This document shows, one piece after another, positions 10,659-26,781 of a stretch of DNA of 64,000 nt. The translations under genes and the position numbers were made by a program. The first letter of the stretch is position 1. Every line of letters begins with the position of its first letter. This DNA is from Akkermansia muciniphila (GTDB taxonomy: Bacteria; Verrucomicrobiota; Verrucomicrobiia; Opitutales; UBA953): assembly GCA_943331445.1 (NCBI GenBank), contig CALQLO010000010.1, positions 1 through 64,000 on the forward strand, written 5' to 3'. The notes under the pieces were generated by a model. It ran no database searches, was not told where the DNA came from, and saw nothing but the letters and a program-made list of their open reading frames with translations.

Positions 10659-12103
10659 ACCATCTCCTCAACCGCCGCGGCTTCCTCAGCCGAACGCTCT
10701 CTGGCCTGAGCAGCATCGCCTTCGCCCACTTACTCACGCAAGACCGACTGCTCGCCGACTCGCCCCTGCGCCCGCCGATTGACCCAGCCAATCCTTACGC
10801 CCCGCGTCCGCCGCACAAGGAAGCCAAGGCCAAGCGCGTCCTCGTCATCTTCTGCTCCGGTGCGCTCAGCCACGTCGACACCTTTGATTACAAGCCCGAG
10901 CTCATCAAGCGGCACGACACACCGATGCCGGGAAGCGAGGGCTTGGTCACCTTCCAAGGCGCCAACGGCAATCTCGTCAAACCCATCGCTGAATTCAAGC
11001 CGCGCGGGCAATCTGGCAAGATGGTCAGCGACCTCCTGCCGAACCTCGCCGAGATGGCTGACGAGATGTGCTTCATTCATTCGATGACCGGGAAGTCGAA
11101 CACCCACGGCCCCGCCGAGAGCCAGATGGGCACGGGCTTCACGCTCGATGGCTTCCCGAGTATGGGCTCTTGGGTGACCTACGCCCTCGGGAGCGAGAAT
11201 CAGAATCTGCCCGCGTTTGTCGCCATCCCTGATCCGCGCGGCGTCCCCCAGAACGGCCCCCGTCACTGGAACAGCGCGTTTCTTCCCGCATCTTTCCAGG
11301 GCACGGCGTTTAGCGCCCAACGTGCGATCCCGAACCTCGCTCGCCCGGCCGAGATCACTCCCGAGGCCGATCGCGCAACGCGCGACTACCTCCGCCGGCT
11401 CAATGACCGACACCTCGAGAAGAACCCTGGCGACTCCGACCTGTCGGCCCGCATTTCATCTTATGAACTCGCGGCCCGCATGCAGCTCAACGCCGCCGAA
11501 CTTTCCGACCTCTCTGGCGAGTCCGCCGCGACTCGCGCCCTGTACGGCGCCGACGACAGCAACGTCAACAAGGCCGGGTTCGCTAAGAACTGCATCCTCG
11601 CCCGTCGCCTGCTCGAGAAGGGCGTGCGCTTCGTCCAGCTCTTCAACGGATCGTACGCCATGGGCGAAGGCGTCGGCAACTGGGACGGCCACAAAAGCAT
11701 TGTCAGCCAATACGCCGTCCACGCCCCCATCCTCGACCAGCCCGCCGCCGCCCTCCTCAAGGACCTCAAGGCCCGCGGCCTGCTCAAGGACACCTTGGTG
11801 GCTTTCGTGACCGAATTCGGTCGTATGCCCACCTTCCAAAAGGGTGCCAACGGCCGGGACCATAATCCCAAGGGGTTCACCATCTGGTTAGCCGGGGCCG
11901 GCGTGAAACGCGGGTACAGCCATGGAGAAACCGATGATTTCGGGCACATGGCGGTCAAAGACGTCACGACCATCTACGACCTGCATGCCACCATGCTGCA
12001 CCTGCTCGGCCTGGATCATGAACGCCTCAGCTTCTACAACAACGGGGTCGAACGCCGCCTCACCGACGTCCACGGCCACGTCATCAAGCCCATTCTGGCC
12101 TAA
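10655..12103 (+). CDS. DUF1501 domain protein, Tat-exported
   Basis: The 482-residue protein begins with a twin-arginine signal ([16 protein letters not shown]) and is DUF1501 throughout: [37 protein letters not shown] and the C-terminal [12 protein letters not shown]. Its ATG overlaps the TGA of the preceding cytochrome gene, the tightest of the three DUF1549/DUF1501 pairs here. It is most similar in layout to the 4707 protein and less so to the 32830 protein. A perfect palindrome lies six bases after its stop and may end the transcript. Confidence 0.92.
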
Positions 12104-12109
12104 GCGCCG

Positions 12110-12125
12110 CCCGCAATATTGCGGG
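12110..12125. terminator. Palindrome, possible terminator
   Basis: CCCGCAATATTGCGGG is a perfect 16-base palindrome six bases after the DUF1501 stop. It can fold as a 6-bp GC-rich stem with an ATAT loop and is followed by ATATTTT. The T-tract is short, so termination is likely but not certain. Confidence 0.4.
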
Positions 12126-12133
12126 ATATTTTG

Positions 12134-12159
12134 GGAACTTGCCCGCCGCCGCGAGGGTC
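12134..12159 (+). promoter_or_regulatory. ECF-sigma-like promoter, GGAAC-N18-GTC
   Basis: GGAAC at 12134-12138 and GTC at 12157-12159 are 18 bases apart. The site begins nine bases after the palindrome at 12110-12125 and ends 55 bases before the DUF1592 start, so terminator and promoter appear back to back. Confidence 0.45.
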
Positions 12160-12214
12160 ACATAAATACCTCGGCGACCACCCCCCTTCGCCCCTCCCTT
12201 TTTTGTCACCCAAA

Positions 12215-14677
12215 ATGTCTCTTCGCCGTCACCTTTCCCCGGCCTGCGTGCTCATTACCCTGAGCCTTGGCTTCACGACCGCCGTCCGTGCGGCGGAACC
12301 CTACGAAGCCTTCATTGAGAAGCACTGCGTCCGTTGCCACGGACAGGATAAACAGAAAGGCGACCTGCGTTTCGATAAGCTTTCGCGCGACTTCAAACTG
12401 GGCGCCGACACCCATCATTGGGCCGAGGCCATGGAAAACGTGAACAGCGGCGAGATGCCACCGAAGAAGGACAAGGAGCCCAAGCCGACCCAGGCCGAGA
12501 TCGCCGCCTTCGTCGCTAGCCTGGACGGAGCCCTAAAAGATGGCCGCGCTTCGCGCATGGCGGCGCGCCCTTCCGTCGCCCACTACCGCCTCAGCCGAAA
12601 GGAATACCAGAACACGGTCTACGATCTGCTCGGTGCTCGCTATAACCCAGCCATTCCGGGCGGCCTGAATGAAGACTCCCTCTGGCACGGCTACGATCGC
12701 ATCGGCTCCATGCTGTCGCTTTCGCCCTCGCACGTGGATCGCTATTATCGTGCCGCCGACACCGTCCTCGACCGCAGCTTCCCCACGAAATCGAGCGAAG
12801 CCCGCAAGGTTCGTAAGACGGCCGAGGAGATGGGTTACGGTGACAAGAATTCCATGAAGTCCATCCAGGAGTCGCTGGATAGATTCGGCATCAAGCGCCC
12901 ACTGCGTTACCTCCTCTACCCAGGTCGCGTCCCGACGGCCCTCTCCCCTCAGTGGTTCGGCAAAACTGGCCCGGAACACAGCGGGCTCTACCGCATGCGC
13001 ATCCAAGCTAGCGGCATTCGTCCACTGGGCGGCCAGCCTGCCCATTTGAGCATCGGCAAAGAGACCGGCGAAGAAACCGTGTCCGGCCTCATTGAATTCG
13101 ATATCAACGCACCGGAAGACAGCCCGAAAGTCTACGAGTTCGAGGTCTTCCTCGATATGCCTTCGAGCCTCAACTTCGCCGTCGTGGCCACGGAAGGCGT
13201 GGACCGCCGAGCCGGTGCCGCCTTCCGCAATGCCCTGACCAGCGGACCCGCCTATATCTTCACGCATAGCAGCGAAACGCGGACCCTGAACGCCAACGCC
13301 CCGCAGATGTTCGATGACAAAGGCCACAGCATTTTCTCTACGGTACTCGTCGATTGGATCGAATGGGAAGGCCCCCTGGAAACCAAAGCAGAAAAATCAC
13401 GTCGCGAGGGCTTAATGCCTCCGGACAACGCCACACCTGAAGTGGTAGCGCAGTACCTGCAGCGCTTTGCCGAACGGGCCTGGCGTCGTCCCGTTCAGAA
13501 CCATGAATTGGAAGAGTATCTTAAAACTTACCGTTCGGAACGCACCGCCGGCGAGAAGGTGGCCGAGGCCTACCGTGCCGCCCTGCAAGGCGTCCTCACC
13601 TCGCGCAATTTCATCTACCTCGTCGAAGGCGAGCCGAAAGCCCGAGAACAGCTCACCGATTACGAACTCGCCTCGCGCGTCTCGTATTTCCTCTGGAGCT
13701 CGATGCCGGATGACGGCCTCTTCACCGCCGCCAAAGGAAATACCCTCAAAGGCGAGGCACTGAAGAAGGAAATCGACCGCATGATTGCCGACCCCCGCAC
13801 CAGCCGCTTCGTCGATGACTTCTCCCGCCAGTGGCTCCAATTAAACCGCGTGGGCATGTTCCCGCCGGACAAGAAGCTCTTCCCTAATTACGACCCATGG
13901 CTAGAGACGAGCATGCGCGGGGAAGTCGTCGAATATTTCCGCGAGATGTTCGTGAAAAACCAACCCGTGGAAGGCTTCATCCATTCCGACTGGACCATGG
14001 CGAACTCTCGCCTCTGCGATTTCTACGGCCTACCCGAGCCCAAGACGGAAGGTTTCCAGCGCGTCTCGCTCAAACCTGAAGACCATCGGGGCGGCCTGCT
14101 CACCATGGGCGCCGTCCTCGGCCTCACCTCTGACGGCACCCGTCACCGCCCAATTCACCGCGGCGTCTGGCTGAGCGACGCAATCCTGGGCAAGACGCCC
14201 CCCTCGCCCCCAGCGAATGTCCCGGCGATTGAACCCAGCACGGCCCAAAACCCCAAGGCCTCCCTGCGCGACAAACTTGCGGTTCACTCCAAGAATCCGA
14301 ATTGCGCCGCCTGCCACGCCAAGATCGACCCCTTGGGCTTTGCCTGGGATAACTATGACGCCATCGGCCAGTGGCGTACCGTCGAGAAGGTCCCTGCAGG
14401 CCTCGGTGCTGACCCAGCCATCAATCCGGCTGGCACGATGCCCGATGGTCGTGCCTTCCAGGATTCCAACGCCTTCAAACAGTTGCTGATTGCCGACCGC
14501 GACGCCGTCGCCCGGGCCTTCATCGAACACCTCTGCACCTACGCCCTCCGCCGCGTGCTCACCTTTGACGACCGCGAAGACATCAAAGCTATCGCCGCCG
14601 AAGCGAAGAAGAACGATTATCGTATCAAGGATATCGTGAAAGCCGTAGCCACATCCGAACTCCTTCAGAAACGCTGA
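12215..14677 (+). CDS. DUF1587/DUF1592/DUF1588/DUF1585 cytochrome protein
   Basis: The 820-residue protein starts at the ATG in CCAAAATGTCT, which opens a signal peptide (about 1-27); an in-frame TTG at 12119 gives an implausible leader. An N-terminal cytochrome motif CVRCH is at 38-42, followed by a PSCyt3-like region with [13 protein letters not shown]1587 (about 120-190, [17 protein letters not shown]) is followed by a beta-rich insert (about 250-390), then DUF1595/DUF1592 (about 420-610, [18 protein letters not shown]), DUF1588 (about 620-680, [12 protein letters not shown]) and DUF1585 with [13 protein letters not shown] near 695-707. It is paired with the DUF1552 gene at 14821 and leads the operon that contains the five-paralog block. 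Confidence 0.92.
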
Positions 14678-14682
14678 GTTAT

Positions 14683-14779
14683 GTTCCTCGTTCATTGTTC
14701 ATAGTTCATAGTTCCACGTCCCCGGCCAAAGAACCAAGCACCAAGCACGAAGAACGAAGAACTAAGAACCAAGAACTTT
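14683..14779. repeat. Heptanucleotide inverted-repeat array, intergenic copy
   Basis: Five in-phase units of GTTCNNN (14683-14717) are followed by a 13-base centre and seven units starting GAAC or GCAC (14731-14779). The right arm is largely the reverse complement of the left, so the array can fold into a large imperfect hairpin. It fills most of the gap between the DUF1592 and DUF1552 genes. The same unit type occurs inside four genes downstream. Confidence 0.85.
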
Positions 14780-14820
14780 ATTTAACTAAGACCCCCCTTT
14801 AACCAAAAACCAAAACAAAC

Positions 14821-16179
14821 ATGTCCAACTACCTATCCCAGTCCTGGTTGATCAATCGGCGCCATGCCCTTCAGGCCATGGGCACACTCGTCTCCCTCCC
14901 CCTACTGGAGTGCATGATTCCGCTCCGGGCGAAGGAGAGCGCCACCGCCACCCCCAAGCGCAGTGCGTTCATCTACCTCGCCAACGGCGTCCACTCGCTC
15001 AACTACCAGATCACGAAGCCGGGTGCGGATTATCAATTCTCCCGCTCCCTCTCCCCGCTGGAGAAGCACCGTCAGGTCATCACCCCGATCAGCGGCTTGC
15101 ACCACCCGGGCAATCTCGGCTGGCACCACAATTGCATCAGCACCTGGTTGACGGGTGGCAAACTCGGCCCCACGGACCGCAACACAATCTCCGTGGACCA
15201 AAAGATGGCCGAAATCACGGCGCAGCATACGCGCATCAGTTCACTGGAGGTCGCGCTTACCGATGTCTCCCTGGCCTGGACCGCCGACGGCGTCCGCCTC
15301 CCCGCCATGCGCCGTTGCAGTGAAATCTTCGCCTCCATGTTTGAAGAGCCGAAGAACGGTAAGACGGCCCAACGCCGCGAACTCCGCCGCAAGGGCAGCG
15401 TCCTCGACGCCAACCTCGAAGAAGTCCGCCAACTCGAGAAGAAAATGGGCACCGAAGACAAAGGCCGCATGGATCAATACCTCACCTCCGTCCGCGAAGC
15501 GGAAATCCGCACCCGCCGTGCCGATGCCTGGCTCGACACGCCGCTGCCTTCCGTCTCGGAATCCGACCGCAAGCGCACCAATCGCGACATCGCCGACACC
15601 AAGGCCGGTGACTATTTCCGCACGGTCTACGACATCATGGTGCTCGCCTTCCAGACGGACGTGACGCGCGTCGCTACCTTCAGCATGGGTGGCGAAGGGA
15701 ATGCCTTCGCCATTCCGGAAATCGGCATCACCGAATCCCGCCACCAACTCAGCCACCACGGAGGCGACCCCGGCTACATGGAGAAGCTCACGAAATACGA
15801 CACCTTCGCCATCGAGCAATTCAGCTACTTCCTCACCCGCCTCGCCGAAACTAAAGACTTCAGCGGCAAGCCCCTACTCGGCTCGACGATGTCCCTCTTC
15901 GGCAGCGGCATGTCCTACGGCCACAGCCACGGCAATGCCAACCTCCCGCTGGTGCTCGCCGGCGGCTCCGATCTCGGCCTGAAGCACGGCACCCACCTCG
16001 ACTACAATCAAGGACACTTCTCGGGCTACCAGCTCGATAAGCCCTCCCAGCATTACGGCCTCTGCAGCCGCCCCGCAAACACCGACGCCCACATGAGCAA
16101 CTTGTTGCTCCTGATGGCCCAGCGCATGGGCGTGGAAATCGACCGTTTCGGCGACAGCAACAAGGTCGTCTCGCTCTAA
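14821..16179 (+). CDS. DUF1552 domain protein
   Basis: The 452-residue protein begins with a twin-arginine-like leader ([19 protein letters not shown]); the motif is degenerate, so Tat export is probable rather than certain. The remainder is DUF1552: [27 protein letters not shown], a long charged helical region (about 170-240), [16 protein letters not shown] and a C-terminal [11 protein letters not shown]. It follows the DUF1592 gene across the heptad-repeat spacer, the pairing also seen at 44888/47584 and 56712/60758. Its TAA overlaps the next ATG (TAATG), coupling it to the five-paralog block. Function beyond this association is unknown. Confidence 0.92.
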
Positions 16180-17471
16180 TGATGTTCTTGGTTCGTTGTT
16201 CGTTGTTCGTTGTTCTTGGTTTGTTGGGCGTTCGCGCCAACGCCGCCAACGAAGAACCAAGAACGAAGAACCAAGAACAAGTGGCGGTTCCGTTTCGACC
16301 CGAATCGGCAAAATTCCCTCCCTTGGAAAAGTCGGTGTCCTATCGGGGGGAACTCATCTTCGTGGACCATGCGAATCGACGAGGCTGTATCCGCGTAGAG
16401 GGCACGGGCCAGTTCCGACGGAACGACCCCCACCCCTTCGCCATGCTGCCCTACGGCATCATCCGCTATCACGGTGCGCCGGCTGACCTCCGGGATATCC
16501 CGCTCGGCACAGTCATGCGCGTACGCGCCTACCTCCCACCGGACCCCAAGACCTCTTCGGTGCCCGTACTCCCGATCAATAATAAAGAAAAGGATGCGAA
16601 TGGCTATCGAGGCACGGGGGTCTTCCCGGCCGAGAATCACGCCATCCTGCTCGAAGATGACGCCAGCTACTGCCTCCGGGAGGGTAAAGTCTGGAAACTT
16701 AAAGAAGTAGACCTCCAACTCAACCAAGGGATCGTCCTCGCCACCCTCGAACCGAAAGCAGGCGGCGACACTCAGGCCGCCGAACAGAAACTCACCCTCG
16801 ATACCGCCACCCGCTTCTGGCGAGGTCGCGAATGCCTTCGACTCGCCGACCTCATCGCCGATGGCACTTGGCCCGCCAGCGGCAAGAAATCCCTCGGCGG
16901 CCAGTCCGTCCTCCTCGGCCTCGTTTGGAAGCCTTGCCCAGATGGCATCTTCGTCCGTTTTCATATTTCTGACGTCTGGCTGGACGATGTTGCGACGCAA
17001 CGTGCCGCCCAGAGTCAGGCCGAAGTGCACAAGACTTTCATCCGTAGCCGCTGGATGCCGGCCTGGGTAGACGCTGTTGAGTATGGCAAGTTTGGCCGCG
17101 CCACCGTGACCGCGACGCTGTTCGGCGGCATGGATCCCTCCCTCTACGCGGACTTCCAGAAAGGGAGTTCGGCCATGATGAATGGGGCCGAGAACACCTT
17201 GAAACATACTGACGCCTCTTATGGCCCAGGGCACATGGCCTCCCGCGGCTCCATCCTAGATGTCACAAAGGCAGCGGGAGAAATCCCCCTTGGGAGCAGT
17301 GGCATCCAAGTCCGCTTCGAGACGGATCTCATCATCGAAGGCATTCGTCCTGGAAAAGTCGTCCGAGTCCGCCCGGCTGCCTGGCCAGTCGTCGAACTAC
17401 CCCGCGAAGAACACCTCGGCTCCTTCCGGCACGAGGAACGCTTTCCGACCCCGGCCATCTTTCAAAAATAA
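16179..17471 (+). CDS. Secreted protein of unrecognised family, paralog 1 of 5
   Basis: I do not recognise this 430-residue family. Residues 1-22 form a signal peptide ([20 protein letters not shown]) encoded by the left arm of a heptad array; residues 23-35 ([11 protein letters not shown]) come from the right arm. The mature part starts with [20 protein letters not shown] and carries family blocks [31 protein letters not shown], a WKLKEVDLQ segment, [48 protein letters not shown] and a C-terminal RFPTPAIF. It looks beta-rich and soluble. Start ATG overlaps the DUF1552 stop. Co-transcription with DUF1592/DUF1552 suggests a partner role, which is inference. Confidence 0.85.
16184..16278. repeat. 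Heptanucleotide inverted-repeat array inside paralog 1
   Basis: Six units GTTCTTG/GTTCGTT/GTTTGTT (16184-16225) form the left arm. The centre carries GGCGTT...AACGCC. Four exact units GAAGAAC/CAAGAAC (16251-16278) form the right arm. The arms are mutually complementary over most of their length. The array starts five bases inside the gene and encodes the hydrophobic core of the signal peptide and the first mature residues. Confidence 0.85.
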
Positions 17472-18703
17472 TGCGTCTCTGCCTTTCCTGTTTCTCCTTG
17501 GCCCTGTGCCTCGGGGCTTCCCTCCTTGCCGTCGCTGCGGAGGAACCGTTCCGACCCGAACAGGGCAAGTTCCCTCCGCTCGACAAATCGGTAGCTTACC
17601 GGGGTGAGTTAGTGTTCGTGGATCACGCCACCCGGCGCGGCAGCCTCCGCGTAGAATTTAAGAGTGAGTTCTTCCGGAGCCCACCGACCCCGTTCGCCAT
17701 GCTCCCCTACGGCATGGTTCGCTATCACGGCGCCCCCGCGGACCTTCGAGATATCCCGCTTGGGACGATTATGAATATTCGGGCCTTCCTTCCGCCCGAC
17801 CCGAAGAACTCCTCAGTGGTGACCACGCCAAACCATTGGTACCCCCTGCCCCTCGAGAATCACGCCATCCTCATCGAGGACGAACCTAGCCTCTGCCTGC
17901 GCGAAGGAAAAACCTGGAAGCTCAAAGAGATTGATCTTCAGAATAACCAAGGGGTGGTCCTCGCCACCCGCGCCTCCCAGGACGCTGCGGCCGCCAAGGA
18001 CCCCGAAGAAAAGCTGACCATCGATTCGACTACCCGCTTCTGGCGCGGCCGCGAAAGCCTCAGCCTCGCGGACCTAGTCGCCGAAGGCACTTGGCCCGCC
18101 AGCGGTAAAAAATCCCTCGGCGGCCAGTCCGTCCTCCTCGGCCTCATCTGGAAGCCGTGCCCGGATGGTATCTTCGTCCGCTACCACATCTCGGACGTCT
18201 GGCTGGACGACAAGGCGACGCAACGCGCTATCCAGAGCCAAACCGAAGTGCATATGAGCTTAATCCGTAGCCGCTGGATGCCCGCCTTTGTGGACAAAGT
18301 GGAATACGGAAAATTCGGTCGGGCCACGGTCACCGTTACACTGTTCGGAGGCATGGATCCATCCCTCTACGCCGACTTCAAGAAAGATGGCACGGGAGCC
18401 ATCAACGGGGCGGAAAACACTTTGAAGCATGCCGGCGGCTCCTATGGCCCTGCGCACATGGCATCGAAGGGCACCATCCAGGAAGTCATCAAGACCCCTG
18501 GCGTAGCCCCGATGGGCAGCAGCGGCATCCAAGTTCGCTTTGAGACCGATCTGATCATCGAAGGCATTCGCCCCGGGCGAGTCGTCCGTATCCGCCCCTC
18601 AGGCTGGCCGAACGTCTACATTCCGCGCGAAGAGTTTTTAGGCGAAGGCTCGAAGATAGAAGACCGCTTCCCGAGACCTGACATCTTTCCTATATACCGA
18701 TGA
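17471..18703 (+). CDS. Secreted protein of unrecognised family, paralog 2 of 5 (no heptad array)
   Basis: This 410-residue member has an ordinary signal peptide ([20 protein letters not shown]) and passes straight from VAAEEP to the family start FRPEQGKFPPLDKSVAYRGE. It therefore lacks the 13-16 residue hydrophilic segment that the other four carry, and its DNA has no 7-base periodicity there. The shared blocks are all present: [67 protein letters not shown] and [17 protein letters not shown]. Its ATG overlaps the stop of paralog 1 (TAATG) and its TGA overlaps the ATG of paralog 3. It serves as the likely array-free reference for the family. Confidence 0.85.
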   Translation: MRLCLSCFSLALCLGASLLAVAAEEPFRPEQGKFPPLDKSVAYRGELVFVDHATRRGSLRVEFKSEFFRSPPTPFAMLPYGMVRYHGAPADLRDIPLGTIMNIRAFLPPDPKNSSVVTTPNHWYPLPLENHAILIEDEPSLCLREGKTWKLKEIDLQNNQGVVLATRASQDAAAAKDPEEKLTIDSTTRFWRGRESLSLADLVAEGTWPASGKKSLGGQSVLLGLIWKPCPDGIFVRYHISDVWLDDKATQRAIQSQTEVHMSLIRSRWMPAFVDKVEYGKFGRATVTVTLFGGMDPSLYADFKKDGTGAINGAENTLKHAGGSYGPAHMASKGTIQEVIKTPGVAPMGSSGIQVRFETDLIIEGIRPGRVVRIRPSGWPNVYIPREEFLGEGSKIEDRFPRPDIFPIYR

Positions 18704-20037
18704 AAATATTCTTGGTTCTTCGTTCTTCGTTCGTGGCACAACGTTCATGGTTCTTAGTTCTTTGTTCTTCGTTGATGGTTGCTAGCGCTTTTGCCGCCAA
18801 CGAAGCACCAGGAACCAAGAACAAGGAACAGGTAGCGGAAATCTACCGCCCGCAGGCGGGGAAGTTTCCGGACCTTGAAAAAGCCCACGCCTACCGGGGC
18901 GAACTCATCTTCGTAGACCACGCCAACCGTCGAGGAAGCATCCGCGTAGCAGGCGAAGGCATGTTCCGTCGCAATGATCCGCACCCCTTCGCGATGCTGC
19001 CCTACGGCATAATTCGCTATCACGGCGCGCCGGCTGACCTCCGGGACATCCCGCTCGGGACCATGATGCACGTGCTCGCCTACCTCCCACCCGACCCGAG
19101 GATTTCCGCCGTACCGGTCTTGCCTGAAAATAACAAGGAGAAGGACGCTGGCCACTATCGTGGTGCGGGCGTGTTTCCCGCCGAGAACCATGTTCTCCTC
19201 ATCGAAGACGAAGCCAGTTACTGCCTGCGCGAGGGCAAAGCCTGGAAACTCAAAGAAGTGGAGCTGCAGTCGAGCAACCAAGGCATGATCCTAGCCACCC
19301 TTGAAGCAAAGCAAAGCGGCGACGGCAAAGCGACCGAACAAAAGCTGACCTTCGACGGCGCGCTCCGCATCTGGCGCGGCCGCGAATGCCTGACCATCGC
19401 CGAGTTGATCGCCGAAGGCGCTTGGCCAGCCAGCGGCAAGAAATCCCTGAACGCCCAATCCGTCCTCCTCGGGCTGACGTGGAAGCCAACCCCGGATGGC
19501 ATCTTCCAGCGCTTCCACATTTCGGATATCTGGCTAGACGATGCCTCCATCCAACGTGCCGCCAAAAACCAGACCGAGACCCACACGGCTTTAATTCGCG
19601 GCCGCTGGATGCCCGCGTTTGTAGATACCGTGGAATACGGAAAATTCGGTCGCGCGACCGTGACCGTGACCTTGTTCGGCGGGATGGACCCTTCCCTTTA
19701 CGCGGATTTTAATAAGGACAGCCCCGTCCTCATCAACGGGGCCGAGAATACGCTGAAGCACGACGGGGGGCACTATGGCCCTGGCCACCTAGCCTCTCGC
19801 GGCACCATCCTAGGCGTCGTCAAGACTCCCGGGACCGCGCCGATGGGCAGCAGTGGCATCCAAGTGCGCTTTGAGACCGATCTGATCATCGAAGGTATTC
19901 GTCCCGGACGAGTCGTTCGCATCCATCCCAAGGGATGGCCGGATGTCGTGCTCCCTCGCGAAGAATATTTGGGCGACGGCCCCCGGCAAGAAGACCGCTT
20001 CCCGAGCCCAGCGATCTTCCCGAAATATAATCTATGA
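18700..20037 (+). CDS. Secreted protein of unrecognised family, paralog 3 of 5
   Basis: At 445 residues this is the longest member, because its heptad-encoded leader is the longest in frame: about 35 residues of signal peptide ending ASAFA, then [11 protein letters not shown] from the right arm. A GTG at 18733 aligns with the starts of paralogs 4 and 5, so a shorter product is possible. The mature region follows the family pattern ([80 protein letters not shown]). Long stretches are close to paralogs 1 and 4 at DNA level, suggesting recent duplication or gene conversion. The ATG overlaps the preceding TGA (ATGA). Confidence 0.84.
   Translation: MKIFLVLRSSFVAQRSWFLVLCSSLMVASAFAANEAPGTKNKEQVAEIYRPQAGKFPDLEKAHAYRGELIFVDHANRRGSIRVAGEGMFRRNDPHPFAMLPYGIIRYHGAPADLRDIPLGTMMHVLAYLPPDPRISAVPVLPENNKEKDAGHYRGAGVFPAENHVLLIEDEASYCLREGKAWKLKEVELQSSNQGMILATLEAKQSGDGKATEQKLTFDGALRIWRGRECLTIAELIAEGAWPASGKKSLNAQSVLLGLTWKPTPDGIFQRFHISDIWLDDASIQRAAKNQTETHTALIRGRWMPAFVDTVEYGKFGRATVTVTLFGGMDPSLYADFNKDSPVLINGAENTLKHDGGHYGPGHLASRGTILGVVKTPGTAPMGSSGIQVRFETDLIIEGIRPGRVVRIHPKGWPDVVLPREEYLGDGPRQEDRFPSPAIFPKYNL
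18708..18831. repeat. Heptanucleotide inverted-repeat array inside paralog 3
   Basis: Eleven in-phase 7-base units from 18708 to 18784, mostly GTTCTTN, GTTCATG and GTTGATG, form the left arm. The right arm (about 18798-18831) carries diverged CGAAGCA/CCAGGAA/CCAAGAA/CAAGGAA units. The array begins eight bases after the A of the start codon and ends where the conserved mature protein begins. Confidence 0.83.
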
Positions 20038-20048
20038 AGACGGTCTTC

Positions 20049-20191
20049 ATTCTTTGTTCTTAGTGCCTAGTTCTTTGTTCATCGTTCATCGCTCATGGCA
20101 TACCGTTCATCGTTCTTGATTCTTTGCTCTTCGTTGATGCTTGTTTGTGTCTTTGCCGCCAACGAAGCACCAGGAACCAAGAACCAAGAAC
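20049..20191. repeat. Heptanucleotide inverted-repeat array at the start of paralog 4
   Basis: Fourteen in-phase 7-base units run from 20049 to 20146 and four right-arm units (GAAGCAC, CAGGAAC, CAAGAAC, CAAGAAC) from 20164 to 20191. This is the longest array in the window. Its first part lies upstream of the usable start codon and contains an in-frame stop for the coupled ATG at 20034. Confidence 0.85.
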
Positions 20192-21369
20192 TTGCTTCAG
20201 TTGTTTTTCGCCCAGAAGCGGGGAAGTTCCCGGACCTTGAGAAGGCGCACACCTACCAAGGCGAACTCGTGTTCGTGGATCATGCCAACCGCCGCGGCAG
20301 CATTCGGGTGCGGGCTGGCAGCGATGTACTTTACCGGAACGCTCCGCACCCCTTTGCCATGCTCCCCTACGGCGTGGTGCGTTATCACGGTGCCACGGCC
20401 GACCTCCGCGATATCCCCCTCGGCACCATGCTCCACGTCAGTGCCTTCCTCCCGCCGGACCCTAAGATCTCGGCGGTGCCGATTGTCCAGAATCCCTCAG
20501 TCGAGCATCCCGCCGAGAACCACGTCCTCCTGCTTGAGGACGAAGCCAGCTACTGCCTGCGTAAAAGCAAAGTCTGGAAACTTAAAGAAGTGGAACTGCA
20601 GAAGAACCATGGAATGGTCATTGCCACCCTCGAACCCAAGGATGGCGGCGACGGCACGGCAGCCGAACAAAAGATGACGATCGACACCGCCACCCGCATC
20701 TGGCGCGGTCGCGAATGCCTCGGAATCGCCGACCTCATCGCCGAGGGCACCTGGACAGCCGCTGGCAAGAAATCCCTTGGCGGCCAAGCCGTCCGGCTGG
20801 GACTGACTTGGTTACCCGCAGGCACCTGGGAAAATCGCGTGGAGAATCAATTTCACATCACGGATATCTGGCTCGAGGACACCGCGCTGCAGCGCTCCGC
20901 CCAACAACAAACGGGCGTGCACCAAGCCCTCATCCGCACCCGCTGGATGGCCGCGTGGGTGGATGCCGTCGAGTATGGCAAGTTCGGCCGCGCTACGGTG
21001 ACCGCGACCTTGTTCGGCGATTACGACGCTACGCTCTTCGCCGACCTCGCCGCGGGTAGCAAGATGATGATGAACGGGGCGGAGAATACACTGAAGCATG
21101 CCGGCGGCGCCTATGGCCCTGCCCACATGGCCGCGAAAGGCTCTATTCTTGAAGTCACGCGAGTACCAGGAGTGGCACCCATGGGCAGTAGCGGCGTCCA
21201 GGTTCGCTTTGAGACGGACCTTATCATTGAAGGCATTCGACCTGGCCGGGTGGTCCACGTCCGCCCGTCAAGCTGGACGAATGTCGCCGTACCGCGGGAA
21301 GAATACCTCGGCGACGGGAGCAAGTTGGAAGACCGTTTTCCCAGCCCTGCCATCTTCCCGAAATACTAA
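20095..21369 (+). CDS. Secreted protein of unrecognised family, paralog 4 of 5
   Basis: The 424-residue product starts at the ATG in GCTCATGGCATACC, inside the heptad array: [20 protein letters not shown] is the signal peptide, followed by [13 protein letters not shown]. An ATG at 20034 overlaps the previous stop, as in its sisters, but reads only MKTVFILCS before TAG, so it cannot make the protein. The mature part shows the family blocks with its own variations: [29 protein letters not shown], a longer [21 protein letters not shown] segment and [13 protein letters not shown] instead of [13 protein letters not shown]. This is the most divergent mature region of the five. No Shine-Dalgarno is evident. 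Confidence 0.83.
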
Positions 21370-21378
21370 TGTCGCCGC

Positions 21379-21500
21379 GTTCTTGGTTCGTAGTTCTTTG
21401 TTCATGGCACATCGTTCATCATTCCTAGTTCTTTGTTCTTCGTTGATGTTTGTTTGCGCCTTTGCCGCCAACGAAGAACCAAAAACTAAGAACCAAGCAC
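21379..21500. repeat. Heptanucleotide inverted-repeat array at the start of paralog 5
   Basis: Eleven in-phase 7-base units run from 21379 to 21455 (GTTCTTG, GTTCGTA, GTTCTTT, GTTCATG and so on). The right arm has GAAGAAC, CAAAAAC, TAAGAAC, CAAGCAC at 21473-21500. The usable start codon of paralog 5 is part of the GTTCATG unit at 21400-21406. Confidence 0.85.
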
Positions 21501-22702
21501 AAGTCGCCGTTCCCTTCCGCCCAGAAGCGGGGAAGTTCCCGGCACTTGAAAATGCTCACTCCTATCGGGGAGAACTTGTCTTCGTAGACCATGCCAACCG
21601 TCGCGGCAGCCTCCGCATCCAAGGAGTGGGCAGCTTTCGCCGCAACGAACCGCACCCCTTCGCACTACTGCCCTATGGCATGGTCCGTTATCACGGCGCC
21701 CCGGCGGATCTCCGGGACATACCGCTCGGGACGATGATGCACGTGCTCGCTTACCTTCCGCCCGATCCTAAAAACTCCGCGGTCCCCGTGCTGCCGATCA
21801 ATAATAAGGAAAATACGGCAGGCTTTCGCGATCGCGGTACCGCACCGGCCGAAAACCATATTCTCCTGCTCGAAGACGAGCCCAGCTACGACCTCCGCAC
21901 AGGCAAGGCCTGGAAACTTGGGGAAGTGGTGCTCCAGAACCACGCTGGCCTCATGGTCGCCACACGCGAACCAACCCAAGGCAGCCCGGGTCAGACCACC
22001 GACGAAACCATGACCTTCGATGCCTCCACCCGCGTCTGGCGGGGGCGCGAATGCCTCGGGATCGAGGACCTAATCGCCGAGGGCACGTGGCCCGCCGAAG
22101 GTAAAAAAAGCCTTAGCCCCCAGGTCGTCCAATTAGGCCTCACGTGGAAACCCACCGCTGGCAGCGTCTTCAACCGCTTCCACATCGCTGATATCTGGAT
22201 TGATGATGCCGCCATGCAACGCGCCACCCAGCGCCAGACCAAGGCGTACGAGGCCTTTATCCGTAGTCGCTGGATGCCCGCTTGGATTGACGCCGTGGAG
22301 TATGGCAAGTTTGGCCGGGCCACCGTGACCGTGACCCTATTCGGGGGCATGCCTCCAGCTCTCTACGCCGATTTTAAAAAGGGCATCCCGGCGATGATGA
22401 ATGGCGTCGAGCAAACCTTAAAGCATACCGAGGGCGGTACCGCCGGCCCCTCCCAAATGTCCGCACGTGGCGTCATCCTTGATGTCGCGAAAGTGCATGG
22501 AGAAGCACCGATCGGCAGCAGCGGTATCCAGATTCGCTTTGAGACGGACCTCATCACCGAAGGCCTCCGGCCCACGCGCGTCGTGCGACTGCGTCCCGCG
22601 GACTGGCCCGATGTCCATGTGCCACGCGAAGAATACATCAACGGCGGGTCCGCCCGCATGGATGAGCGCTTCCCCACTCCGGCCATTTTCCCCAAATACT
22701 GA
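21404..22702 (+). CDS. Secreted protein of unrecognised family, paralog 5 of 5
   Basis: The 432-residue protein starts at the ATG inside the GTTCATG repeat unit, giving [20 protein letters not shown] as signal peptide and [13 protein letters not shown] before [20 protein letters not shown]. The ATG at 21369, overlapping the previous TAA, reads [19 protein letters not shown] and then stops, so the coupled start is out of frame, as in paralog 4. Upstream in-frame starts inside paralog 4 are rejected. The mature domain is slightly diverged ([22 protein letters not shown] region, [19 protein letters not shown]) and ends [11 protein letters not shown]. It closes the tandem block; 92 bases without an evident gene separate it from the next one. 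Confidence 0.83.
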
Positions 22703-22794
22703 CCCGCTGGGGCCGCCCACACCCTACCTCGAGGGGTAAACAACCGAAAGGGGTGGAACTGACTGTCTGAGCGGGTTACCTAGTGGGCTACCCC

Positions 22795-25434
22795 ATGTAC
22801 CGCCGTACCCCCATCGGCTTGGCCTGCCTGCTCCTGGCCACCCTAACAGCCCTCTCCGCGGCCGACCTGACGTTGATGCAAAAGGGCCAGAGCCCCTATC
22901 AAATCGTCTTGCCCGACGAGGCACCCTCTCCCCGCATCAAGGAAGCCCTTCAGCAAACGGCCCGTCTCATGCAGACCGCCTTCGCCGCTAATGGATGCGA
23001 AATCAAGGTCGTCGAAGAAAGCAAAAGGGAAGCCGCCAAGCCGGCCCTCTTTCTCGGCAACACCCAGTTCGCCCGGCAGCACGACTTCGTCGCCGCCTCT
23101 CTCCGCGACTGGAGTTACGTGCACCGTGCGGTCGGTGAGAATATTATTATCGCCGGGAATGATGCCCCGGCTGCCGTCGCCGCCAGCAAGGGCCGCCCCG
23201 GATGGGATCGCATGGGCACCGCCAAGGCCACCGTGGATTTCGTCCGTGAATTCATGGGCGTGCGCTTTCTTTACCCCGACCTCGACCCGTTCAACGGCGT
23301 CCAAGCGGCCGCCAAGATCGACCTTCGCACCTGCCCAGGCATTGAATATTTACCACGCAAGACTTTCGTCATCCCCGCCGACCTAAACCAGACCAAGGTG
23401 CCAGTCATCCGCTCCAACACGGGCTTCCCCGAGTGCGGCGGCTTCTATGATCTTGCGAATAATCGCTTCCCGCCCGTCGACGAAACCTTTGGTGGGCACA
23501 CCTGGGAACGCGCCGTGCCCGTGGAGAAATATACGACCACCCACCCCGAATACTTCGCACTCGTCAATAAAGTGCGCCTCACGAATGAACCAGGTCGAGC
23601 CCAATACTGCCTCTCAAATCCCGATGTTCAGGAGCTCATTTACCAGGATGCCGTGGCCGAGATCAAACGAGGCTACGCTACCGTTGGCCTCGGGCAACCG
23701 GACGGATTCCGCGCATGCCAATGTGAGGAGTGCGAGAAATTTCTAGGCACCGGCAAGGACTGGTCCGAAAAAATCTGGATCTTCCATCGCAATGTCGCCG
23801 AGCGGCTCCAGCACGCGCACCCCGACCGAAAAGTGACGATCATGTCGTATATCCAAACGGCACCCCCTCCGAAGGCTTTTAAAGCCTTCCCCGCTAACAC
23901 GACCATCATGCTAACGGGGACCAACGAAGAAGACATCGCCGTATGGCGCGGCATCGAAGTACCCCACGGCTTCACCGGCTATATTTATAATTGGTGTCCG
24001 AATCTAGGCACGCGCTACACCCCCATGCGGACGCCAGGCTACGTGGAGGCACAAGTCCGACGACTCGCCGTCAATCGTATCCAGTCGATTTATCGCGACG
24101 GGCCTGGCCAGTTGTACGGGCTCGAAGGACCGGTCTTCTACACCATGGGCCGGATGTTCGATGACCCCGAGCACAATGCCGCCAAGACCCTCGTGCCGGA
24201 ATTCGTGGAAGCCGCCTTCGGCCCGAACGCGACCGGTGCGGCCATGCGCTCATTCTACGACCAACTCTATCAAGGAATTTCGCTGTATTCCGATCACATC
24301 GGCACCCGCGATGACCTGTGGCGCAGCCAGAGCTACGATGGCCGAGCCTTCAAGACCGTCACCGACCCCTTTCAATTCATCGCTTTCATCTATCACCCCA
24401 ATCTCCTTGCGGCGCTGGAAAGCGACCTAGCGCAAGCCGAGAAGACCGCCCTCTCAGTTAAGACCAAACTCCGCCTCGCCCTAGTCCGCCGCGAGTTCGA
24501 TTACATCCGCCACCTCGCCCGGGTCGTGCATCTCTACCAAGCGTTCCAGATCCAGCCCGACGTAGGTGCGCGCGATCGACTGCTGGATGCCATCGATGCC
24601 CGTAACACATTCATCGCTTCGCTCTATGACGCCAAAGGCCGTAACCTGACCATTCCTGGATGGGAGCGCACCCTCTTCCCCATCGGCGGTCACAATCAGA
24701 ATCACCTTCGACTGAGCCAAGACGGCTACCAAGAACCCTACGCCAACACCTGCTTCAACTGGGACACCAAGGCGATGCGCCAAGCCCCGATGGCTGGCCC
24801 AAAACAGTTAAAGGTCACCCGGGTAGCCGAGCCCATGAAATTAGACGACACCCGCTGGCAGAACATTGCCGCGACGGAACTCACCCATTGCCTCCCCCTG
24901 GGTGGCTTACCCCGCAGCACCCGCCTCCAACTCAGTTACGACGGCACCGCGCTCTACGTGCGCACCGAGAGCACCCTCGAGGCCGACTCGCCCGTCGACC
25001 TGACGAAACTGCCCCGCGACTCCGCCGTCACGAAACGAGAATCCATCGAAGTCTACTTACAGCCAGTGAAGTCAAAAGACATCTTCTATCACTTGGCGGT
25101 CGGTGCGAACGCCGATTCGAAATATGACGCCGCCACCGGCTTCATCACTGACTTGATGGACCCACGGCACGGCAAAGGTGACCCGACTTGGAATGGCGAC
25201 TGGTGGGCCGAAACTCGCGTCGACGAAAAAACCAAGCTCCTACACACCCTCTTCATCATCCCGTTCAAAACCCTGGGCGCCGAACCGCCCACCGTTGGAA
25301 CTCCCTGGGGTGCAAATTTCGGGCGCAATCATCCCGGCGCCCGGAACCGCATTGACCGCTCAACATGGTCGTCGTCCTTCAGCAGCAACGCCGTCACCGA
25401 CCCTGGCGTCATCGGACAGATCAGCTTCGAGTAA
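22795..25434 (+). CDS. DUF4838 domain secreted protein, candidate glycan-active enzyme
   Basis: From ATG 22795 the protein is 879 residues with a signal peptide (MYRRTPIGLACLLLATLTAL). An N-terminal alpha/beta region (about 25-190; NGCEIKVVEE, GAATVDFVREFMGVRFLYPD-like) resembles the auxiliary domain of GH67/GH20-type enzymes. The DUF4838 core (about 190-560) contains GLGQPDGFRACQCEECEKF and IMLTGTNEEDIAVWRG. The C-terminal 200 residues (about 670-879) look like a CBM9-type beta sandwich (DDTRWQNIAATELTHCLPL, ESIEVYLQP). DUF4838 proteins are found in PVC and Bacteroidota polysaccharide loci, but the substrate is unknown. An in-frame GTG at 22783 is a weaker start. Confidence 0.85.
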   Translation: MYRRTPIGLACLLLATLTALSAADLTLMQKGQSPYQIVLPDEAPSPRIKEALQQTARLMQTAFAANGCEIKVVEESKREAAKPALFLGNTQFARQHDFVAASLRDWSYVHRAVGENIIIAGNDAPAAVAASKGRPGWDRMGTAKATVDFVREFMGVRFLYPDLDPFNGVQAAAKIDLRTCPGIEYLPRKTFVIPADLNQTKVPVIRSNTGFPECGGFYDLANNRFPPVDETFGGHTWERAVPVEKYTTTHPEYFALVNKVRLTNEPGRAQYCLSNPDVQELIYQDAVAEIKRGYATVGLGQPDGFRACQCEECEKFLGTGKDWSEKIWIFHRNVAERLQHAHPDRKVTIMSYIQTAPPPKAFKAFPANTTIMLTGTNEEDIAVWRGIEVPHGFTGYIYNWCPNLGTRYTPMRTPGYVEAQVRRLAVNRIQSIYRDGPGQLYGLEGPVFYTMGRMFDDPEHNAAKTLVPEFVEAAFGPNATGAAMRSFYDQLYQGISLYSDHIGTRDDLWRSQSYDGRAFKTVTDPFQFIAFIYHPNLLAALESDLAQAEKTALSVKTKLRLALVRREFDYIRHLARVVHLYQAFQIQPDVGARDRLLDAIDARNTFIASLYDAKGRNLTIPGWERTLFPIGGHNQNHLRLSQDGYQEPYANTCFNWDTKAMRQAPMAGPKQLKVTRVAEPMKLDDTRWQNIAATELTHCLPLGGLPRSTRLQLSYDGTALYVRTESTLEADSPVDLTKLPRDSAVTKRESIEVYLQPVKSKDIFYHLAVGANADSKYDAATGFITDLMDPRHGKGDPTWNGDWWAETRVDEKTKLLHTLFIIPFKTLGAEPPTVGTPWGANFGRNHPGARNRIDRSTWSSSFSSNAVTDPGVIGQISFE

Positions 25435-26137: not shown

Positions 26138-26170
26138 TATACTCAATACTCCATACTCTATACTCCATAC
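26138..26170 (+). repeat. Tandem heptanucleotide repeat NATACTC
   Basis: Four exact in-phase units TATACTC, AATACTC, CATACTC, TATACTC (26138-26165) and a partial CATAC fill the leader just before the ATG at 26173. The unit differs from the GTTCTTN arrays near 14.7-21.5 kb, but the 7-base period is the same. There is no inverted arm here. Confidence 0.85.
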
Positions 26171-26172
26171 CC

Positions 26173-26781
26173 ATGCGCCTCTCCCTCCTCGCCCTCGCCC
26201 TGACCTCCGTCGCTTATGGGGCCGACAGTAAGCCGCTCCTAAACGACAAGCCCCTGCCTTCGCTTGCGGCCCCCTCTTTCAAAGAACCGCTCGATGCCAC
26301 CTGGTCGCAGGCCAAGGGCAAATGGACGCCCGACAATGGCGTGCTCCATATGGTCGAAATCACCGAAGAAAAACACGTCCCTGTGCTCTGGCATAAAGTC
26401 GGCCTGTCCGCCGCCGTCATCGAACTTGATTTCAAGCAAGACGCCGCCGGCGTTTTCTATGTTGGCTGCGATGCCGACAAACACGTGGGCCGGGTCGTCG
26501 TCCTCGGCGGCACCGTCGTCATTCAGGAAGATACCGCCAAGGCCTCCCACACCATCGCCACGCAGAAATACGCCGCCAAGGCAGGCGAATGGCATCACCT
26601 GCGCGTCGAATGGAAAGACGACAGCTTCGCTTTCAAAATCGACGATCAGGCACCCATTACCGCCCAGCATCCTTACTTTGCCACCGCCAAGAAGCGTAGC
26701 TGGATTGCCGGCTCCAAGACAGCCGACGTGAAGAACCTCACGATCAACGGCACGGTGAGCGTCGCCGAAGCCAAAAAATAA
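26173..26781 (+). CDS. Small secreted LamG/DUF1080-like protein
   Basis: The 202-residue protein has a signal peptide (MRLSLLALALTSVAYGA) and a jelly-roll pattern: SKPLLNDKPLPSL, EPLDATWSQAKGKWTPDNGV, AAVIELDFKQDAAGVFYVG, EWHHLRVEWKDDSFAFKIDD and VKNLTINGTV. It is close in type to the 25449 and 48889 proteins and to short DUF1080 members. The start is the first ATG after the heptad repeat; earlier starts would overlap the previous gene and lack a signal peptide. No catalytic residues are identifiable, so a glycan-binding role is as likely as hydrolysis. Confidence 0.78.
   Translation: MRLSLLALALTSVAYGADSKPLLNDKPLPSLAAPSFKEPLDATWSQAKGKWTPDNGVLHMVEITEEKHVPVLWHKVGLSAAVIELDFKQDAAGVFYVGCDADKHVGRVVVLGGTVVIQEDTAKASHTIATQKYAAKAGEWHHLRVEWKDDSFAFKIDDQAPITAQHPYFATAKKRSWIAGSKTADVKNLTINGTVSVAEAKK

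Follow-up and report, generated by a model that had tools for sequence, protein, structure and literature searches.

Judging from the sequence, an inverted repeat with a seven-nucleotide period has probably been incorporated into the N-terminal coding region of one family of tandemly arranged secreted-protein genes, where it would supply both the signal peptide and the linker that follows. The family is represented in the window, by which we mean the whole 64,000-nucleotide stretch of DNA analyzed, by five tandem paralogs of about 410–445 amino acids, all on the + strand and 3′ of a DUF1552 gene (14821–16179, +). No Pfam family was assigned to any of the five, and a structural prediction for the mature part (mean pLDDT of 74) returned no convincing match in the PDB. 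Paralog 1 (16179–17471) begins with an ATG that overlaps the stop codon of the DUF1552 gene (TAATG); paralog 2 (17471–18703) has an ordinary 23-residue signal peptide and no array; and the ATG of paralog 3 (18700–20037) overlaps the TGA of paralog 2 (ATGA). Paralog 4 (20095–21369) and paralog 5 (21404–22702, within a frame listed from 21098) complete the cluster, and these two, like paralogs 1 and 3, have N-termini encoded by an array. Such start–stop overlaps are found in 43 of the 69 array-bearing family members with enough upstream sequence, as compared with 19 of 45 members with ordinary signal peptides.

The preliminary description of this DNA reported five arrays of 7-base period, four of them at or around paralog starts, and both observations hold. 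Each array is 95–143 nt long, with GTTCNTN-like units making up the left arm and their complement the right arm. Lag-7 identity is 0.73, 0.64, 0.60, 0.60, and 0.59 in the five arrays, taken 5′ to 3′, and secondary peaks appear at lags of 14 and 21. The window as a whole averages 0.254 (sd 0.050), and its highest lag-7 stretches are almost all these same arrays. Array 1 (14683–14779, +) is non-coding and lies between the stop codon of a gene ending at 14677 and the DUF1552 gene. Array 2 (16184–16278, +) starts 5 nt past the ATG of paralog 1 and encodes a stretch of 22 and a stretch of 12 residues of that protein, while array 3 (18708–18831, +) starts 8 nt past the ATG of paralog 3 and encodes its predicted signal peptide and linker. 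The start–stop overlaps at these two genes place the start of translation before the arrays. Arrays 4 (20049–20191, +) and 5 (21379–21500, +) straddle the ATG codons of their paralogs, at 20095 and 21404, respectively. The portion of array 4 that lies 5′ of 20095 contains an in-frame stop and is thus untranslated in the frame of paralog 4; the ATG of paralog 5 falls inside a GTTCATG unit, and a TTG at 21382 is a possible earlier start. A further 7-nt array, made of TACTCCA-like units, occupies 26139–26174 of the window, just 5′ of where the next secreted protein appears to start (MRLSLLALALTS).

The heptamer encodes the same kind of peptide in whichever frame it is read, as the preliminary description had proposed. 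All three frames of an array of GTTCTTN units yield the hydrophobic peptide VLxSxFx, and the complement yields xExRTKN; (GTTCTTG)n, for example, gives VLGSWFL in every frame and its complement gives QEPRTKN in every frame. Among six units tried, only GTTCTTA introduced stops on the left-arm strand. Because unit and complement keep these readings in all frames, an inverted pair encodes a hydrophobic stretch and then a hydrophilic one in any frame and from either end. The translations in the window agree with the hydrophobic left arm and hydrophilic right arm originally described, with right arms of the form NE(A/E)P(G/R/K)TKN(K/Q)E. A period of 7, prime to 3, in combination with the inverted arrangement means that frame and orientation matter little, which would make the element unusually easy to recruit.

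Members of the family with both arms show the sequence features of Sec-type signal peptides (positively charged n-region, hydrophobic core, small residues at −3 and −1), and they closely resemble members with ordinary signal peptides: core Kyte–Doolittle hydrophobicity is 2.67 versus 2.66, a net positive n-region is present in 84% versus 87%, and a small-x-Ala cleavage motif in 96% versus 98%. We propose that a mostly intergenic heptamer repeat of Verrucomicrobiota (GTTCNTN and its complement) would have entered the 5′ end of tandem secreted-protein genes, whose start codons often overlap the preceding stop, so as to lie in frame between the start and the conserved mature part. The left arm, which repeats a hydrophobic heptapeptide in whatever frame it is read, would then form the n- and h-regions of a Sec-type signal peptide, with the cleavage region (AFA, ANA) provided by the loop and a hydrophilic linker of ~12 residues at the mature N-terminus added by the right arm. 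The segment would turn over rapidly, through recombination or rewriting of units, and trade places with ordinary signal peptides without loss of frame or hydrophobicity. The sequences themselves show that the element is a repeat, that its frame is retained, that it is interchangeable with ordinary signal peptides, and that its arms are separable; Sec export, cleavage, and the way in which arrays move are inferred. The earlier assignment of the signal-peptide core to the left arm is not supported in that form: in many relatives, part or even much of the core comes from a non-repeat loop.

Homologs were sampled across records of Verrucomicrobiota and Planctomycetota; the spread over these two phyla rests on several independent records, the titles of single MAG records being unreliable. 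Of six patterns with which homologs were retrieved, one (KNKEQVAE) was itself derived from an array, which biases array frequency upward in this set; whole-genome searches used the full protein, array-coded N-terminus included, and some sequences, coming from fragmented MAGs, may be misassembled. The mature domain is common to members with and without arrays, and at the sequence level the segments that precede it are interchangeable. In members such as G004, G005, and G068, the mature domain is directly preceded by an ordinary signal peptide of unrelated sequence, and array members have ~12 more residues between signal peptide and mature domain than ordinary members do. The preliminary description would have been undermined by relatives that retained the same signal-peptide residues without the periodicity or inverted arm; in the array-less members, the signal peptide is instead unrelated and borders directly on the mature domain. 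Paralog 2 of the source genome (G000), with its ordinary signal peptide, and a gene of G002 with an array signal peptide differ by only 1.4% in the DNA of their mature domains. A tree built from 147 mature domains (quick search, SH-aLRT support only; array labels set by count thresholds, 20 members left unlabelled) requires at least 35 changes between array and ordinary states, close to the 41.2 (sd 2.6) obtained with shuffled labels. Other family members reach the same N-terminal place with a second type of repeat, in which 8-nt ACTCCANC units encode the n-region LHHSTTPS; nine loci carry arrays of this kind.

As RNA, the imperfect hairpins of the preliminary description are clearly stable in most but not all of the arrays. 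Compared with dinucleotide shuffles, the arrays starting at 14683, 16184, 18708, and 21379 fold far more stably (z of −3.8, −6.0, −4.2, and −3.4), whereas that at 20049 folds weakly (z −1.5; 12 of 200 shuffles equally good). No Rfam covariance model matched within 12000–24000 of the window. Stable folding in four of five arrays is what would be expected of an RNA element acting as an intercistronic stabilizer, an attenuator, or an occluder of start sites, with the encoded peptide merely tolerated. Hairpins located in intergenic sequence right after stop codons elsewhere are consistent with such a role, as are the arms of a G024 array, which remain matched in a variant unit as well (GGTGCTT/AAGCACC), and a hairpin array in G433 (locus L254, ~1501, − strand) that constitutes a 27-codon frame separating two paralogs, with an ATGA overlap on each side. 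The paralog downstream of this 27-codon frame has an ordinary signal peptide.

Nevertheless, we consider an RNA element with an incidental peptide unlikely. Eighteen members retain only a left arm and five only a right arm, so the arms are separable and their pairing is not required; in G019, a left-arm signal peptide persists although the right arm has decayed. Between G000 and G002, the left arm of paralog 5 differs at 19 of 84 sites, without gaps, while the right arm differs at 0 of 48 and the body of the gene at 2 of 900. We found no perfect donor for the rewritten left arm, the nearest sequence being paralog 3 at 86%. A left arm rewritten opposite an unchanged right arm, like the single-arm members, argues against the hairpin as such being the feature that is kept; on this point the earlier reading is not supported. 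Moreover, removal of the array-coded residues would leave the protein with no signal peptide, in a family that otherwise has one.

Retention of the coding frame favors instead a repeat that is read as protein. Within the 105 nt before the mature domain, stops occur in the coding frame of 2 of 73 array members, as compared with 40 and 35 of 73 in the other two frames (2/73 versus 75/146; Fisher p about 1e-14). The same data bear on the idea of a contingency locus, in which slippage of 7-nt units would toggle the downstream frame and the signal peptide would be incidental. Such loci usually carry short tandem units where the coding region begins, and the non-coding array that precedes the DUF1552 gene does vary by whole units between close genomes, by 7 nt relative to G002 and by 35 nt relative to G066, neither divisible by 3. 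The coding arrays of the close genomes compared, however, differ by substitutions or by 6 nt and never by single 7-nt units; their heterogeneous units would hinder slippage, and with the coding frame open in 71 of 73 members we regard frame toggling as very improbable. That signal peptides rich in Leu, Val, Phe, and Ser might appear periodic simply through codon use, with no DNA repeat recruited, is scarcely credible, since ordinary signal peptides of the family lack the lag-7 signal (0.276 versus 0.460 in the array set) and since neither the complementarity of the right arm nor the existence of matching arrays between genes can be explained without a repeat at the DNA level.

Recruitment of repeat DNA as the coding sequence of a signal peptide thus remains our preferred reading, and it gains context from arrays elsewhere. 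The source assembly (2.4 Mb, 83 contigs), whose nearest named relatives are Opitutae MAGs, contains 31 matches to the strict three-unit pattern GTTCTTNGTTCNTNGTTC versus 1 for the reversed control. Arrays were counted by pattern search of the genome together with reading of contig stretches, and those examined outside the cluster are mostly intergenic, usually consist of a single arm, and often lie directly 3′ of a stop codon. Hairpins of the same units also occur in unrelated families of the phylum, where the reversed-pattern control returned 0. A search for other arrays, as the preliminary description suggested, therefore recovers many, mostly intergenic, but left-arm starts are confined to the paralog family: across 388 genomes, an ATG followed by a left arm opens a long frame at 3 of ~16 distinct places, all in this family. 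A test for wider recruitment, in which the left arm would serve other proteins as a signal-peptide core, found no example outside the family in those 388 genomes; use of the left arm in this way appears to be family-specific. The proposal that a DNA repeat was recruited as an export signal stands insofar as the repeat is dispersed, mostly intergenic, and, in this family, in frame, open, and hydrophobic, while export itself is a prediction from sequence.

Several other arrangements of these units were observed. The hydrophilic arm opens some prepilin-like frames (four loci; for example, MNEERRTKNEEQAALHAAFTLIELLIV) and, on contig C49, a further frame (L017). Many copies occur of a longer composite repeat, AGGCAGCGCTAGGCGTGTTCTTCGTTCTTGG...GCGGTTGGCGGTTAGCGGTTGGG (L016–L022; G000 contigs C38, C49, C54, C67, and C72), which contains a short heptamer array as well as AACCGCT-type units.

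We give roughly even weight to a broader interpretation, namely that a hairpin indifferent to frame and orientation acts as a ready-made cassette of signal peptide plus linker, repeatedly gained, lost, and exchanged in one secreted family across two phyla, and that sequence divergence of its signals can proceed about a hundredfold faster than that of the attached protein. The family would offer a concrete natural case, repeatedly sampled, in which non-coding repeat DNA gave rise to a functional protein segment, and in which near-identical proteins show the states before and after side by side. A period of 7, which leaves the hydrophobic strand readable in every frame, would explain the ease of recruitment, and the de novo origin of signal peptides would become testable in the laboratory.

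To our knowledge, the palindromic elements of Rickettsia are not 7-nt tandem repeats. These elements and their Wolbachia relatives, as cited in PMC2996958 and PMC2759123, resemble the present arrays in being palindromes that lie in frame within protein genes, but they occupy assorted positions in housekeeping proteins. PARCEL repeats are likewise dyad-symmetric coding repeats spread among bacteria, though they are 75 nt long, encode 25 residues, and are a multiple of 3 (PMC2996958). GTAG/CGTC REP sequences share with the window arrays an occurrence as intergenic palindromes in Verrucomicrobia, mostly downstream of genes; they differ in being 20–40 bp long, tagged by GTAG/CGTC, linked to RAYT tyrosine transposases, and free of 7-nt arrays (PMC3733652). 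Read by eye, the window arrays have neither GTAG nor CGTC as a defining end.

Two systems come closer. The enterobacterial, ERIC-like RU-1/RU-2 elements within ORFs provide a precedent for a repeat that contributes to a predicted signal peptide (Delihas, 2007; PMC2759123), although the element there, 168 bp long, occupies a single locus and has a fixed reading frame, without a 7-nt period or recurrence across a protein family (PMC2759123). The heptameric arrays of Xanthomonas (GGGANTN) and Nostoc (GGGGA(T/C)T) have heterogeneous units, variable at positions 5 and 7, and lie close to the end of the upstream gene, with 7–11% overlapping genes at least partly (PMC4692102). Like the window arrays, they are heterogeneous 7-nt units, often in inverted pairs and mostly intergenic; unlike them, they are G-rich and proposed to form G-quadruplexes (PMC4692102), whereas the GTTCNTN units of the window contain no G-tracts. 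We found no role in signal peptides described for them in PMC4692102. The open-access literature searched contained no description of heptanucleotide repeats in Verrucomicrobia or Planctomycetes, nor of a frame-independent inverted heptamer serving as a signal peptide or recurrently exchanged with one. Within that literature, a repeat-derived signal peptide and inverted heptameric arrays each have precedents, and their combination in a single family of secreted proteins is new.
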